From contig NZ_BDGT01000028.1 in the NCBI RefSeq assembly GCF_001748285.1, positions 1 to 64,000 on the forward strand: a stretch of 64,000 nucleotides of DNA, given 5' to 3'. Both the position numbers and the translations under genes were made by a program. The notes under the pieces are model-generated. The model worked only from the letters and a program-made list of their open reading frames with translations. It ran no database searches and was not told the origin of the DNA. Numbering within the stretch: the stretch's first letter is position 1; each line of letters starts with the position of its first letter. Origin of the DNA: Thermogemmatispora onikobensis. GTDB lineage: Bacteria > Chloroflexota > Ktedonobacteria > Ktedonobacterales > Ktedonobacteraceae. Shown piece by piece: positions 219 to 4,543 of this stretch.

Positions 219-461
219 TCAGCCAGCGCGCTTGACAATGCGAATAATCCACTCCTCTGGTCCCTGTTGCTCCGGTATCCAGTCGAAAGTCTCTGGATAT
301 TCGGCCAGCAATTGATAGCGCAGCGGGGCGGGATCGTGGTCGTTGATGAGGCGCAGCGCACTGCCCGGCTGCAGCGCCTCCAGGCGACTGAAAATGAGGG
401 GATGACGCTCACGGGGCACGATCGTGCGTACGTCGAGTGTTTCGGCAAGGTTGTCGCTCAT
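219..461 (-). CDS. DUF2249 domain protein (first copy)
   Basis: An 80-residue protein that is almost entirely one DUF2249 domain: a TLDVRTIVPRERHPLIF segment near residue 10, then LINDHDPAPLRYQL and a terminal EEWIIRIVKR strand. DUF2249 is a small domain related in fold to TusA/SirA and is often found beside NO reductases, NnrS proteins and hemerythrins; its biochemical role is unsettled. The start is set at the internal ATG at 461 because AAGGAG stands about 9 bases upstream; a longer frame to 512 lacks such a site. The gene precedes the partial gene at the left edge. It is read from the promoter region carrying the Crp-type box at 629-646. A second DUF2249 gene lies at 2608-2889 in the same putative regulon. 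Confidence 0.85.
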   Translation of the reverse strand: MSDNLAETLDVRTIVPRERHPLIFSRLEALQPGSALRLINDHDPAPLRYQLLAEYPETFDWIPEQQGPEEWIIRIVKRAG

Positions 462-603: not shown

Positions 604-674
604 AGTATGGCCATTTGACGGCGAAAATACCGTGACTTTTGTCGCAGCTTCGCTGCCCTTCTTCCCTCTATACT
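604..674. promoter_or_regulatory. Divergent promoter region with Crp/Fnr-type operator (box 629-646)
   Basis: The 18-bp box ACCGTGACTTTTGTCGCA at 629-646 recurs without a mismatch at 2991-3008. Read on the minus strand it contains TGCGA-N6-TCACG, the half-site spacing of a Crp-family operator (TGTGA-N6-TCACA). A TATACT at 669-674 on the plus strand and a CATACT at 604-609 on the minus strand place the box centre about 30-35 bp from each -10 element. That matches class II activation, where the operator replaces the -35 element. It would serve the Fe-S assembly gene (+) and the DUF2249 gene (-). The operator call rests on sequence identity and symmetry; activation is inference. Confidence 0.7.
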
Positions 675-837
675 TGCCTGTGAGGTGACGGTGAGCTGTC
701 GCTGCTCCGCTCTCTTCTTCTTCTTCTTCTTCTTCTCTTCGGGACCGACCTCGTCCCTCGAGGGAGACGCGGGGCAGCGCCCTCTGTAGACGAGACGCTC
801 TCCTGCTGGAAGAGTGGAGAAAGAAAGAAAGAGGTTG

Positions 838-1170
838 ATGGCGACAATGCTTGATGAGGAGGCTATCGAACGGGTCAAGCGCGAGATTTATGAAGCGCTG
901 CACGAGGTAGATGATCCCGAGCTCGGGGTCAATCTGGTCGATCTCGGCTTGATCTATGGTATCCAGTTGACGCCCGAGGGCTTTGTGACGATCCGCATGA
1001 CCCTCACTACGCCCGGCTGCCCCATGCATGAGTCTCTGGCGGACGGCGTCGGGGCGGCGCTGGCCCGTATTCCCGAGCTAACGGGTGGCGAGATCGAACT
1101 GGTCTGGGAACCACGCTGGACACCTGAGCGCCTGACCCCCGAAGGAAGGCGCCTGTTGGGCCTGGCCTGA
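838..1170 (+). CDS. MIP18/DUF59-family metal-sulfur cluster assembly factor
   Basis: About 110 residues covering the complete DUF59 (MIP18, PaaD/SufT-like) domain: EIYEALHEVDDPELGVNLVDLG, then MTLTTPGCPMHESL with the conserved Cys, and a C-terminal IELVWEPRWTPERL strand. Members help load Fe-S clusters onto apo-proteins or take part in SUF-type assembly. The ATG at 838 follows a purine-rich stretch ending GAGG. ATG 847 and a GTG at 814 are alternatives, and 847 has slightly better spacing. The gene is divergent from the DUF2249 gene and downstream of the Crp-type box at 629-646. It may therefore be induced together with the NnrS-like cluster, which fits a role in repairing or building Fe-S centres under nitrosative or oxygen stress (inference). 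Confidence 0.85.
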   Translation: MATMLDEEAIERVKREIYEALHEVDDPELGVNLVDLGLIYGIQLTPEGFVTIRMTLTTPGCPMHESLADGVGAALARIPELTGGEIELVWEPRWTPERLTPEGRRLLGLA

Positions 1171-1222
1171 GCGTTGAGGCAGCAGGCCGGTTCCAACAGG
1201 CGGGCCTGTCGAGGACTCGAAG

Positions 1223-2581
1223 CTAGCTGCGCAAGGTGCTCAGCTTCCACTCCAAATGGCGCACCACACTTAGCACATTAATGGCCGCACCCACCAGGCT
1301 GATCCCGACCAGGGCCGCGCCCAGGCAGATCAATCCTTCCCAGCTGAGGAGCACGGCGGGCAGTAACAGTACCAACCCGCCATTGAGCAGCCAGAAGCAG
1401 GCCCAGGCCAGGCGCTCGTGAACCAACTCGCGCATCAGCGGCACCTTCTGATGGCCGACCAGTGGCCCGTAGCGGCTATGCCAGACGAGGAAGGGCACGA
1501 TCTTGTAGAGGTAGCCGACAATGCTCTGCCCGGTCCAGCCAATGAGAAGACAGAGCAGGAGCGCAACCGGCCAGGCGGTCAGCGCGGAGCCGACCGTGAT
1601 CGCGATGGGCAGGGCTGTGGCCCCACTTATAAAGCAGAGTAGGGCCGCAAGACCGTGATACTGGGTCACGTCCAGCGGACGCCTTCGCCGATGGCGCAGC
1701 ATGCGCCAGTAATCCCAGCCAAAGAGCCAGGCGCTAAGAGTGAGAGAGATCGCCCCAGCTAACGCCAGCCAGGTTATCCCCTCCAGCAGGCCGAGCGCCA
1801 GGCCGATGATCCCCACATTCAACAGACCTAGCACCGCCCAGCCCAGACGGTCGTCGTGATCGTGCACCAAAGCAAAGAGACGCACCAGCGTATAGGAGAC
1901 CCCGATCAGGGTATTTGTCAACCAGCCAGCTACACCCAGGGTCACGTGCAGCGGCAGGATCAGCAGCACCCCCAGGCCCAAAAAGCCGTAAATGAAGTTG
2001 AGGGCCGCCGTCAGGCCGAGGGAAACGACCAGACACAGGTAGAGCAAGGCGGCAAAGAGGTAGAAGACTGTCAGAGGGCGCTTGCTGGCCTGGAACAAGG
2101 TGCTCGCTAGAATGATCACATAGCCGAGCACGGCCACGATGACCAGTGAGCCGCCGAGCGCGAGCAGTCCAGGCAGAAAGAGCCAGAAGCCACCCAGCAG
2201 TACCAGCACCCCAGCGAGATAGAGCGGATAAACTACTGGAGCCAGCGCTTTGAAGCGCAAGGGAGTAACGGCGATCACCGGCGTGAGCTGCTGTGAGGCC
2301 CCCAGGATGGTCATAGTCAGCCAGCCGAGCGTCACCGTGTGGACAAGAGCCAGGACGTGGGGCTGACCGCGGTTGATGAGGGCCTCGGGCAGCACGAAAG
2401 GCAGCAAGAGGCCGGCCAGGGCGGCCAGGCAGATGCCTGTGACCAGGAAAGGCAAGGGCACCCCGAGCGGGACGCCGCGCCGTCCCATCATCCCAGGCAG
2501 TCCACCAGCCTGCTGATCCGTCACTCTGAAAGCTCCCGGGCGAGCGCCTGCTCCAGAGGGTCCGCCGGTCATTGGCATCAT
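1223..2581 (-). CDS. NnrS-like / cytochrome oxidase subunit I-like polytopic membrane protein
   Basis: A 452-residue very hydrophobic protein with about 12 predicted transmembrane helices. The segment QPHVLALVHTVTLGWL followed by ILGASQQLTPVI resembles the His-bearing helices of NnrS-type and heme-copper oxidase subunit I-like proteins of Chloroflexota. A further conserved-looking His occurs in YKIVPFLVWHSRYGP near the C-terminus. NnrS proteins are heme-containing membrane proteins linked to protection from NO. The start is placed at ATG 2581, 26 bp past the stop of the upstream DUF2249 gene. A longer frame to 2653 would overlap that gene. It forms a two-gene operon with DUF2249 (2608-2889), driven from the Crp-type box at 2991-3008. 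Family placement is from motif recognition; heme binding is inferred. Confidence 0.75.
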   Translation of the reverse strand: MMPMTGGPSGAGARPGAFRVTDQQAGGLPGMMGRRGVPLGVPLPFLVTGICLAALAGLLLPFVLPEALINRGQPHVLALVHTVTLGWLTMTILGASQQLTPVIAVTPLRFKALAPVVYPLYLAGVLVLLGGFWLFLPGLLALGGSLVIVAVLGYVIILASTLFQASKRPLTVFYLFAALLYLCLVVSLGLTAALNFIYGFLGLGVLLILPLHVTLGVAGWLTNTLIGVSYTLVRLFALVHDHDDRLGWAVLGLLNVGIIGLALGLLEGITWLALAGAISLTLSAWLFGWDYWRMLRHRRRRPLDVTQYHGLAALLCFISGATALPIAITVGSALTAWPVALLLCLLIGWTGQSIVGYLYKIVPFLVWHSRYGPLVGHQKVPLMRELVHERLAWACFWLLNGGLVLLLPAVLLSWEGLICLGAALVGISLVGAAINVLSVVRHLEWKLSTLRS

Positions 2582-2607
2582 CGTTCTGCACCTGTCTCGC
2601 TGCGCAC

Positions 2608-2889
2608 TTATGATCCTCCAGGGATCTGCTGGCGCGTGAAGCGTACCACCCATTCATTAGGAGCCAGACAGAGTGTCTCGTGGCTGAAGCCACGCCCGCC
2701 AAGCACTTCGTAGAGCGGGACCGGCTCAAAGGGGGCCACGATCACCAGTGTTTCGCCTCTCTTCAGCGGCGTAGCGGCCTCCATAATGCGCACAAAAGGT
2801 TCATCGCCGCGCTCCAGGTCAGGGCGCACATCTAGCAGGGCTGTCGCCTGCTGGCGCCAGGTCTGAGCCTCTTCTTGGGCAGCGTCCAT
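2608..2889 (-). CDS. DUF2249 domain protein (second copy)
   Basis: A 93-residue protein with a short N-terminal helix (MDAAQEEAQTWRQQATALLDVRPDLERGDEPF) followed by the DUF2249 core (TLVIVAPFEPVPLYEVLGGRGFSHE, ending EWVVRFTRQ). The start ATG at 2889 is chosen over longer frames because AAAGGAGG lies 5 bases upstream. It is the first gene of an operon with the NnrS-like protein; the next start is 26 bp after its stop. The TusA-like fold of DUF2249 and its company with NnrS suggest a role in nitrogen-oxide respiration or defence, but no catalytic residue can be named. Confidence 0.85.
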   Translation of the reverse strand: MDAAQEEAQTWRQQATALLDVRPDLERGDEPFVRIMEAATPLKRGETLVIVAPFEPVPLYEVLGGRGFSHETLCLAPNEWVVRFTRQQIPGGS

Positions 2890-2965
2890 AAGCCTCCTTT
2901 CCGGCTCGGCAGGAGTACCGAGCATCTCACATTTACTTGGCTCGTCAATCGGCGCTACAATTCTG

Positions 2966-3039
2966 AGTGTACAGCTCGGGATAGGCTGGCACCGTGACTT
3001 TTGTCGCATCTGCAGACACGGCGCTGAGTTGACTACTTT
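2966..3039. promoter_or_regulatory. Divergent promoter region with second Crp/Fnr-type operator (box 2991-3008)
   Basis: This holds the second exact copy of the 18-bp box (ACCGTGACTTTTGTCGCA, 2991-3008). On the minus strand TACACT at 2966-2971 is centred 31 bp from the box centre and would drive DUF2249-NnrS. On the plus strand TACTTT at 3034-3039 is a weaker -10 candidate for the Crp/Fnr gene at 3070. The arrangement implies autoregulation of the regulator and control of the divergent operon. Box identity is seen directly; promoter use is inferred. Confidence 0.7.
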
Positions 3040-3069: not shown

Positions 3070-3774
3070 ATGACGATCGATATCGAGGCAGTACGCCGCA
3101 TACCAATGTTTGCCGCATTAGGGACCGAGGAGCTGGCGCGTGTGGCCGCGGTCACCAGAGAGCGGCGCTACGAGCGTGGTGAGTTGATTATCATGGAAGG
3201 AGACCGCGGAGGGGCACTGTATTATGTGCAGAGCGGACTGGTCAAGGTCTTCAAGCTTTCGCCCGAGGGCAAAGAGCAGGTCCTGCGTCTGATCAGCGCT
3301 GGCTATACCTTCAACGACGTGCCAGCGCTGGACGGTGGCCCCAATCCCGCGAGCGTAGCTGCTCTGGAACCAAGCACTGTCTATAGCGTTGGCCGCGAGG
3401 AGCTGCGTCGACTAATCAGAGAGCGGCCTGCGGTGGCGGAAGGAGTGATCGCCGCCCTGGCGCTCGCTCTCCGCCACCTGGTGGGCCTGGTCGAGGACCT
3501 CTCGTTCCGCCACGTGACCGCGCGGGTGGCGCGTATCCTCTTGGAGCAAGAGCAGGCCCTGGCTGAAGGTCGTCAGGCACGCCGCCTGACCCAGCAGGAG
3601 ATGGCCGCCATTGCGGGCACCGCGCGCGAGGTCGTAGGGCGTGCTCTCAAAGAGCTGGAGGCCGCCGGTACGATCTCCGTGCGGCAAGGGCGGGTTCACA
3701 TTCTCAACCAGGAGCGCCTGCGCTTCCTGGCCGGAGGCGGCCCCGGGCTGCTGCCTGACTTCGAAGCTTCTTGA
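3070..3774 (+). CDS. Crp/Fnr-family transcriptional regulator
   Basis: A 234-residue protein with an N-terminal cyclic-nucleotide-binding-like beta-barrel (about residues 12-125, including GELIIMEGDRGGALYYVQSG), a long dimerisation helix and a C-terminal winged helix-turn-helix (about 150-215). The recognition helix reads AREVVGRALKELE, with R186, E187 and R191 in the arrangement of E. coli CRP (RETVGR), which reads TGTGA half-sites. No N-terminal Cys cluster of the FNR type is visible, so oxygen sensing by [4Fe-4S] is unlikely. A heme or other effector, as in DNR or CooA, is possible. It sits next to an identical pair of TGCGA-N6-TCACG boxes controlling the DUF2249/NnrS-like and Fe-S assembly genes. 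An NO- or redox-responsive role is inferred. Confidence 0.92.
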   Translation: MTIDIEAVRRIPMFAALGTEELARVAAVTRERRYERGELIIMEGDRGGALYYVQSGLVKVFKLSPEGKEQVLRLISAGYTFNDVPALDGGPNPASVAALEPSTVYSVGREELRRLIRERPAVAEGVIAALALALRHLVGLVEDLSFRHVTARVARILLEQEQALAEGRQARRLTQQEMAAIAGTAREVVGRALKELEAAGTISVRQGRVHILNQERLRFLAGGGPGLLPDFEAS

Positions 3775-3988: not shown

Positions 3989-4543
3989 ATGCTAGAGCAA
4001 CGTGAGACGCGGATCATCAACGGAGTGACACTTGCCCTGATGCAGGGCAATATCGTCGAGGTAGAAGCGGATGCCATTGTGAACGCTGCCAACTCAGCCC
4101 TGGCCGGAGGCGGCGGAGTCGATGGGGCCATTCATCGCGCCGGTGGCCCACAGATCATGGCGGAATGCCGCAAGATTGGCGGCTGCCCCACCGGAAGCGC
4201 TGTGGTGACCACGGCAGGGCGACTGCGCGCGAAATACGTCTTTCACGCCGTTGGTCCCATCTATGGAGTCGATCGCGAGGCCCCTCGCCTGTTAGCCAGT
4301 GCTTATCAGCGCTGCCTCGACCTGGCCGAACAGTATGGCCTGCAGAGTATCGCCTTTCCTTCGCTCAGCACCGGCGCCTATGGCTATCCACTGGACGAGG
4401 CCGCGCCCATTGCCCTGCGCACCATTATTACTCATGTGCTGAAGCCAACCTCGCTCAAGCGTGTCATGCTAGTGCTCTACGGCGAAGAGGCCTATCGAGC
4501 CTATGCCCGGGCGCTCGCCTCGCTGCTGCCTGCTCAGCGGTGA
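3989..4543 (+). CDS. Macro-domain (ADP-ribose-binding) protein
   Basis: A 184-residue single macro domain. The key motifs are AIVNAANSALAGGGGVDGAIHRAGG (ADP-ribose pocket, about residues 30-54), GSAVVTTAGRL, KYVFHAVGPIY and the SLSTGAYGYPLDEAA loop. This arrangement is typical of the MacroD/YmdB-like class, which hydrolyses O-acetyl-ADP-ribose or removes mono-ADP-ribose from protein. The start ATG at 3989 follows GAGAAGGGG at good spacing; the frame is open further upstream but without a better site. It is 214 bp downstream of the Crp/Fnr gene on the same strand and could be cotranscribed with it. Substrate is not predictable from sequence alone. Confidence 0.9.
   Translation: MLEQRETRIINGVTLALMQGNIVEVEADAIVNAANSALAGGGGVDGAIHRAGGPQIMAECRKIGGCPTGSAVVTTAGRLRAKYVFHAVGPIYGVDREAPRLLASAYQRCLDLAEQYGLQSIAFPSLSTGAYGYPLDEAAPIALRTIITHVLKPTSLKRVMLVLYGEEAYRAYARALASLLPAQR

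Follow-up and report, generated by a model that had tools for sequence, protein, structure and literature searches.

A palindromic operator, TGYGAC-N4-GTCRCA, accompanies a Crp/Fnr-family regulator gene across the order Ktedonobacterales, and two one-mismatch forms of it lie beside that gene in Thermogemmatispora onikobensis. They are found at positions 629-646 (box A) and 2991-3008 (box B) of a 64,000-nucleotide stretch of contig NZ_BDGT01000028.1 (hereafter the window), where the regulator is encoded at 3070-3774 on the plus strand. Box A occupies the intergenic region between a gene for a DUF2249 protein (DUF2249a) and one for an iron-sulfur (Fe-S) assembly factor, and box B that between a second DUF2249 gene (DUF2249b) and the regulator gene. 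We give a probability of about 0.83 to the reading that this regulator has its operators in boxes A and B, from which it would activate its neighbours in class II fashion, with nitrogen oxide or nitrosative stress as the most likely signal. Sequence comparison reveals the operator and shows that it accompanies the regulator gene, keeps a fixed spacing to −10 elements and goes with particular sets of genes; from these patterns we infer binding, activation over repression, the kind of signal and an effect on the regulator's own gene. An earlier reading of the same DNA (the original prediction), which had matched two identical Crp-type operators to the adjacent regulator, is right in the main.

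The 18-mer ACCGTGACTTTTGTCGCA is indeed present exactly at both places, as had been predicted, and these are its sole copies in the assembly (5,556,502 bases in 112 contigs, 95% complete). Scanning the window with up to three mismatches allowed returns two matches, compared with a mean of 0.02 in 100 dinucleotide-preserving shuffles, none of which reached two. The minus-strand reading TGCGA-N6-TCACG of the 18-mer is correct. However, the true conserved unit is the 16-bp TGYGAC-N4-GTCRCA, which corresponds to 631-646 in box A (CGTGAC-TTTT-GTCGCA) and 2993-3008 in box B; in both, the half GTCGCA is intact and the other half, CGTGAC, carries the single mismatch. Box A is unchanged in alignments of all six genomes of the genus, and a box is found at the matching place in three further genomes (G009, G045 and G042; G-numbers denote genomes, with G000 that of the window, and L-numbers denote loci).

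Orthologues of the regulator occur across the order, many with the same neighbouring genes, and the palindrome is visible before their start codons, for example as GCTGCGACCTTTGTCGCAGC in G045. Absence of the box from orthologous promoters, the outcome that the original prediction had named as damaging to itself, was not observed. Specifically, within 450 bp upstream of the regulator gene in the window and in 14 genomes outside its genus, TGYGAC-N4-GTCRCA occurs with at most one mismatch in 15 of 15 lineages, five of which carry it exactly. Permuted half-sites (n = 359) put through the same test scored a mean of 0.12, the top two being near-synonyms of the real one (TGCGAY with 10 and YGTGAC with 5). 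Only a 4-bp spacer gives this result, with spacers of 0-3 and 5-8 bp scoring 0/15, and the third half-site base is C in 19 and T in 11 of the 30 half-sites. Kept apart from the 15 were the five genus-mates, G016 (its contig begins within the gene), G044 (its contig ends before the gene), second regulator copies in G045 and G033 (51% identical each) and a 43% homologue in G058. The second copy in G033, on contig C145, has an exact box upstream and adjoins a DUF2249 gene.

This conservation bears directly on the notion that the boxes are functionless products of chance or of a recent duplication. Their identity over 18 bp in the window is what such an origin would give, but a box in all 15 lineages, among regulators that outside the genus are 44-69% identical to that of the window, together with the fixed −10 spacing described below, makes it very improbable indeed. 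Moreover, both promoter regions hold exact boxes in G009, G042 and G045, all outside the genus, and G035 and G044 each have one exact and one single-mismatch box. Across 47 genomes the regulator (at least 44% identity, truncated copies counted) is present in 18 of 19 with DUF2249 and in 10 of 11 with a gene like that of the copper nitrite reductase NirK; the sole exception is G044, where a box lies 131 bp from the contig end, at which the regulator would start. Boxes on contigs C70 of G035 and C333 of G044 were considered as DUF2249-associated, a claim dropped because the genes are ~700-860 bp away.

The box could instead be bound by some other regulator, either a paralogue from the Crp/Fnr family or a SpdR-like response regulator of the Fis type. 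The window genome has two other Crp-type matches, one of them with the helix SRESVNK, and the SpdR site as given in an excerpt of PMC4830024, CTGCGAC-N5-GTCGCAG, has a nearly identical half-site. Against such a reader stand the spacer, which is 4 in all 15 regions and 5 in none, the finding of the box upstream of the regulator gene itself in all 15, and the lack of any box before a molybdopterin-enzyme operon in 10 genomes without the regulator. We therefore consider another regulator improbable, and the boxes are very probably landing sites of the regulator encoded at 3070.

The promoters on either side of the boxes point to how such binding might act. Four −10-like hexamers had been predicted and all are present, at centre-to-centre distances from their boxes of 32, 33, 32 and 36 bp: CATACT for DUF2249a (604-609, minus strand) and TATACT for the Fe-S factor gene (669-674, plus strand) around box A, and TACACT for the operon of DUF2249b and a membrane protein (2966-2971, minus strand) and TACTTT on the regulator side (3034-3039) around box B. 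The first three are invariant in all six genus genomes and TACTTT is not conserved in the genus alignments. A class II activator site is centred at about −41.5, that is, 32 bp from the centre of the −10 element, so a −10 element at 32 bp places the box in the class II position.

When TANNNT is counted at every offset, hexamer centre to box centre, 15 of 16 promoters have it 32-33 bp from the box on the side that faces away from the regulator. In G018 this count includes a weak TACTCT, a better TATACT lying at 30, and in four of the 16 (G041, G018, G033 and G040) no full DUF2249b match is seen beside the regulator. The Fe-S side has TANNNT at 33 bp in six of six promoters; the DUF2249a side has it in none of six, although in the window and G009 a CATACT takes that position, at 32-33. 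A further 25 boxes, independent of the discovery of this spacing, show TANNNT at 32-33 bp on either side in 16 cases, whereas other offsets average 1.26 and reach 5 at most (25 of 28 boxes were used, omitting a 2-mismatch site in G027, the near-identical L084 and the second L047 box). Widening the hexamer to [TC]ANNNT, a choice made post hoc, raises this to 22 of 25, and the comparison values to a mean of 2.59 and a maximum of 8.

The regulator's own side is different. TANNNT at 32-33 bp occurs there in one of 16 orthologous promoters (the one at 32), and five lineages have the start codon a mere 29.5-44.5 bp away from the centre of the box, with 29.5 in G029 and G038 and 30.5 in G018. Among the predicted promoters, the class II arrangement is thus found on the target sides and not on the regulator's own side. 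The proposal that each box serves as a class II site for both divergent genes therefore stands for the DUF2249b operon, for the Fe-S factor and, with the weaker CATACT, for DUF2249a, and falls for the regulator gene. With the box so near its start codon and no −10 element at class II spacing, own-gene control of the regulator, if real, would not be class II activation and is possibly repression. The same features, as in G029 and G038, lend some weight to the idea that the regulator binds the box to repress all its targets until a signal releases them; we judge this unlikely, since the target-side −10 elements at 32-33 bp have the geometry of class II activation.

Activation of the neighbouring genes would begin with a regulator dimer binding TGYGAC-N4-GTCRCA centred at about −41.5/−42.5. 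From box B it would activate the DUF2249b/membrane-protein operon, and from box A the Fe-S factor gene and DUF2249a. The regulon in the window species looks local, with these two promoter regions. Two side observations concern these leaders. Next to the Fe-S box at L045 and L048, the DUF2249a side holds another box-like sequence, TATGACAAAAGTCGCT, close to the first, which suggests paired operators there. The Fe-S factor leader of the window contains, downstream of its −10, a run of TTC trinucleotides (712-737) that is absent from the five genus-mates.

The regulator has 234 amino acids and belongs to the CRP/FNR superfamily, with matches above cut-off to PF00027 (81.9 bits, E 3.2e-23) and PF13545 (54.8 bits, E 9.2e-15) and agreement from Foldseek; its AlphaFold model is mediocre (predicted local distance difference test, pLDDT, 75.5) and was used for fold matching alone. 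It is 97% identical to the protein of T. carboxidivorans PM5, the nearest named genome. The recognition helix AREVVGR does begin at residue 185 with R186, E187 and R191, as originally read, and all three residues are invariant in a 16-row orthologue alignment. In CRP-type proteins, according to the part of PMC1274295 available, R180 and E181 are associated with positions G3 and A6 in the site, and by this rule the invariant Arg, Glu and Arg are consistent with a TGnGA half-site. The window protein has no cysteine and no row of the alignment has more than one, which excludes an oxygen-labile Fe-S cluster of the FNR type. The protein also falls short of the NCBIfam equivalog for cyclic AMP (cAMP)-binding CRP (85.6 bits against a cut-off of 266). 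In its segment GGPNPAS, P93 and A94 are invariant at what we take to be the aligned place of the cAMP phosphate contacts, a placement that assumes the residue numbering and the phosphate-binding Arg-Ser pair of CRP; that pair is missing here.

In relatives of the window species the box is also found before other genes. In G041, G033 and G042 an exact palindrome precedes a gene pair, first a membrane subunit and then a molybdopterin oxidoreductase; others stand before a NirK-like copper protein in G041 and a DUF2249 gene in G039 and G045, and single-mismatch boxes before DUF2249 genes in G031 and G016. G035 and G044 have an exact palindrome as well, flanked by the Fe-S factor and by a PhzF-like gene (L092 and L097) that stands where the window has DUF2249a. 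Of 17 genomes that have the regulator, seven carry a box with at most one mismatch in the orthologous molybdopterin-enzyme region, compared with 0 of 10 that lack it (one-sided Fisher 0.022); two of the ten regulator-free regions are short (461 and 1,400 bp), and two of the enzymes there share no more than 61% identity with the query. In G045 the box precedes an extra open reading frame (ORF) of 440 amino acids, itself ahead of the membrane subunit, and in G031 it lies ~1.9 kb before the enzyme, where the gene layout is provisional; a match at −52 in G001 falls in the coding part of the stretch and was not counted. Among 11 NirK-like regions, three have a box with at most one mismatch (G041, G033 and G045) and three with two mismatches (G042, G038 and G029).

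Finding this box ahead of a NasC/FdhF-type operon, certain NirK-like genes and additional DUF2249 genes makes a nitrogen oxide or nitrosative stress the likeliest signal. The NirK-like genes, perhaps the nitrate-reductase genes, the DUF2249 genes and the membrane protein of the window, which resembles NorB and CcoN, all favor this choice; low oxygen or formate may be the signal instead. Exact palindromes inside ORFs of relatives (L086, L093, L094, L096, L100, L101 and L102) were dropped as chance. Two further palindromes overlap the start of a histidine-kinase ORF (L085) and precede a gene for a PIN-domain protein (L095).

Several results weigh against this interpretation, some of them concerning the operator itself. 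Box B has two mismatches in four of five genus-mates (G001, G002, G004 and G005) and one in G003, and no box with up to one mismatch was found in the stretches fetched upstream of the 51% second copy in G045 and the 43% homologue in G058. In the window genome, at least 31 places, among the matches listed, lie within one mismatch of the palindrome, compared with 61 for the reversed pattern. The genome-wide motif search that the original prediction called for, run here with the palindrome, recovers both boxes and yields no additional convincing site in this genome: an AT-centred search with up to two mismatches gives 12 places including boxes A and B, four of the other ten were read (on C10, C5, C20 and C29) and all lie inside or overlap ORFs, and two exact palindromes elsewhere in the genome are both inside ORFs. 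Upstream regions (300 bp) of 62 distant homologues beyond the order contain the box in two cases with at most one mismatch and in five with at most two; of 359 permuted patterns, one reaches 2 at the stricter threshold and 15 reach 5 at the looser.

Other points of this kind concern the targets and the signal. Ten of the 17 molybdopterin-enzyme regions with the regulator, the five genus-mates included, lack a box, and no box at up to two mismatches was seen in the NirK-like regions of G016, G031, G035, G044 and G039 (the last being only 101 bp). The one NirK-like protein scored, that of G041, has copper nitrite reductase as its best NCBIfam match at 194 bits against a cut-off of 296. The molybdopterin enzyme belongs to the NasC/FdhF group and has its top NCBIfam score with NasC, at 806 bits under a cut-off of 1100; it scores above the cut-off for formate dehydrogenase alpha (685 bits, cut-off 666), and among solved structures formate dehydrogenases come nearest to it at 571 bits, with NapA at 397. 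Counting against a formate dehydrogenase is the motif RLCMSSA, with Cys-Met, in 27 of 30 molybdopterin-enzyme loci (RFCM paralogues included; the other three show an unrelated frame), at the place where the two formate enzymes in the alignment show His preceded by Cys or by an unreadable residue, probably selenocysteine. Cys-Met is the form of nitrate reductases. Nitrate reduction and formate oxidation are both candidate activities of the boxed enzyme, with nitrate the somewhat likelier substrate. Finally, exact palindromes after the distant regulator homologues at L299 (6021) and L304 (5666), each having a −10-like hexamer 32 bp away, precede by eye grpE/dnaK-like and glycyl-radical-enzyme-like genes, which counts against a purely nitrogen-oxide role.

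Within the genus, G001, G002, G004 and G005 keep an orthologous molybdopterin enzyme without a counted box. The window genome has only a paralogue of this enzyme, 48% identical, and gave no NirK match at E ≤ 1e-30, so in this assembly, 95% complete, little more of the regulon seems to be left than the promoter regions at boxes A and B.

The candidate system shares features with several known ones. HcpR, in the portion of PMC1274295 available, has a CRP-like operator, wTGTGAnnnnnnTCACAw, no FNR-type cysteines, and nar and nrf genes in some of its regulons. The box here agrees with that operator in frame and spacing and differs at the third half-site base, which is C or T with C the commoner. 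The regulator model matches Porphyromonas HcpR (9day_B) with a template-modelling (TM) score of 0.66, but at 22% identity. In distant Chloroflexota (L267, L277, L295 and L312) a small 4Fe-4S-ferredoxin-like ORF, read by eye, comes right after the regulator, reminiscent of the HcpR target frdX. However, Hcp, the core target of HcpR, is absent here: PF03063 is found in 0 of 47 genomes (control genomes were positive in 5 of 14). The DNR operator is TTGAT-N4-ATCAA, and the DNR structure 3dkw is among the regulator's fold matches. DNR and NnrR may overlap with the present system in target classes, nitrite reductase and NnrS-type proteins, whereas the NnrR operator is ctTTGcgnnnncgCAAag rather than TGYGAC-N4-GTCRCA (both from the same part of PMC1274295).

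Thermus offers another parallel. An excerpt of PMC6282519 describes the Crp-like factor DnrT as required for the DUF2249 gene of DrpA and for nitrate-respiration promoters, and DrpA as a proposed nitrate sensor. The best fold match of the regulator is the structure of a Thermus Crp-family protein, 4ev0, at 34-35% identity, which is not established as DnrT. DnrT itself acts together with DnrS. In Haloferax, DUF2249 genes are co-induced with the main denitrification genes, but the archaeal motif there is CGAAYATDKTYG and the candidate regulators are of the bacterioopsin-activator type (both from an excerpt of PMC11218638).

Some leads, all read by eye, reach beyond the Ktedonobacterales. The form TAYGAC-TTTT-GTCGYA occurs at L267, L295 and L312; the homologue at L295 adjoins DUF2249 and Fe-S homologues plus a hemerythrin-like ORF; and that at L324 is divergent from a membrane-subunit/molybdopterin-enzyme pair, with the box TAGGAC-AAAA-GTCTCA. 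We suggest, tentatively and with more doubt than confidence, a separate Chloroflexota lineage of nitrogen-oxide regulators that would be neither HcpR nor DNR/NnrR, would lack FNR cysteines and cAMP contacts, and would use GAC-N4-GTC class II operators both in the Ktedonobacterales and in other Chloroflexota (L267, L295, L312 and L324). Recurrent partners, DUF2249 and a haem-copper-oxidase-like protein, could shape its signal in the manner proposed for DrpA/DrpB in Thermus.

The neighbouring genes of the window were assigned as follows. DUF2249a (219-461, minus strand; PF10006, E 9.9e-28) and DUF2249b (2608-2889, minus strand; PF10006, E 5.5e-19) have start codons chosen by homology. The Fe-S assembly factor (838-1170, plus strand) is of the FeS_assembly_P or SufT type, with PF01883 at E 1.9e-19 and TIGR02945 at 90 bits, below the cut-off of 143. 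In an operon with DUF2249b (2889 to 1223) lies the gene for a multi-helix membrane protein (1223-2575, minus strand, start position provisional). It had been labelled NnrS-like, a label that Pfam does not support: the protein has no Pfam family even at E ≤ 10 and is not placed in NnrS by Pfam or NCBIfam, and a 22%-identical homologue in G009 matches PF05940 at E 0.0098 and 15.7 bits, against a cut-off of 28. Its predicted fold (AlphaFold, pLDDT 80.5) is haem-copper-oxidase-like, the best PDB matches being CcoN of cbb3 oxidases (TM 0.65-0.71) and the nitric oxide reductase NorB (TM 0.62), and from this model NnrS-like may be a fair guess at how the protein works, as distinct from membership. 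After the regulator, a macro-domain gene (3989-4543) is matched only within the genus among the cluster loci examined.

Among the matches listed from the open-licence literature, judged by title and the start of the abstract, we found no description of this regulon, though one may already exist in subscription journals or in a regulon database. The parts available of a 2026 paper on Ktedonobacteria genomics (PMC13374853) make no mention of Crp or nirK, and those of a 2005 comparative study (PMC1274295) none of 'Chloroflex'. The kind of system is familiar, with a Crp/Fnr regulator, class II sites and a target set like those for nitrogen oxides. As far as the literature was searched, the novelty lies in the form of the operator, in the lineage and in a link at the DNA level to DUF2249 and the haem-copper-oxidase-like protein.

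In a large and little-studied order of Chloroflexota from soils and geothermal sites, one regulator now has an operator, a gene set and a promoter geometry that can be tested. These findings also tie the unexplained DUF2249 proteins and a divergent, predicted haem-copper-oxidase-like protein to this control by DNA evidence that goes beyond neighbourhood alone.

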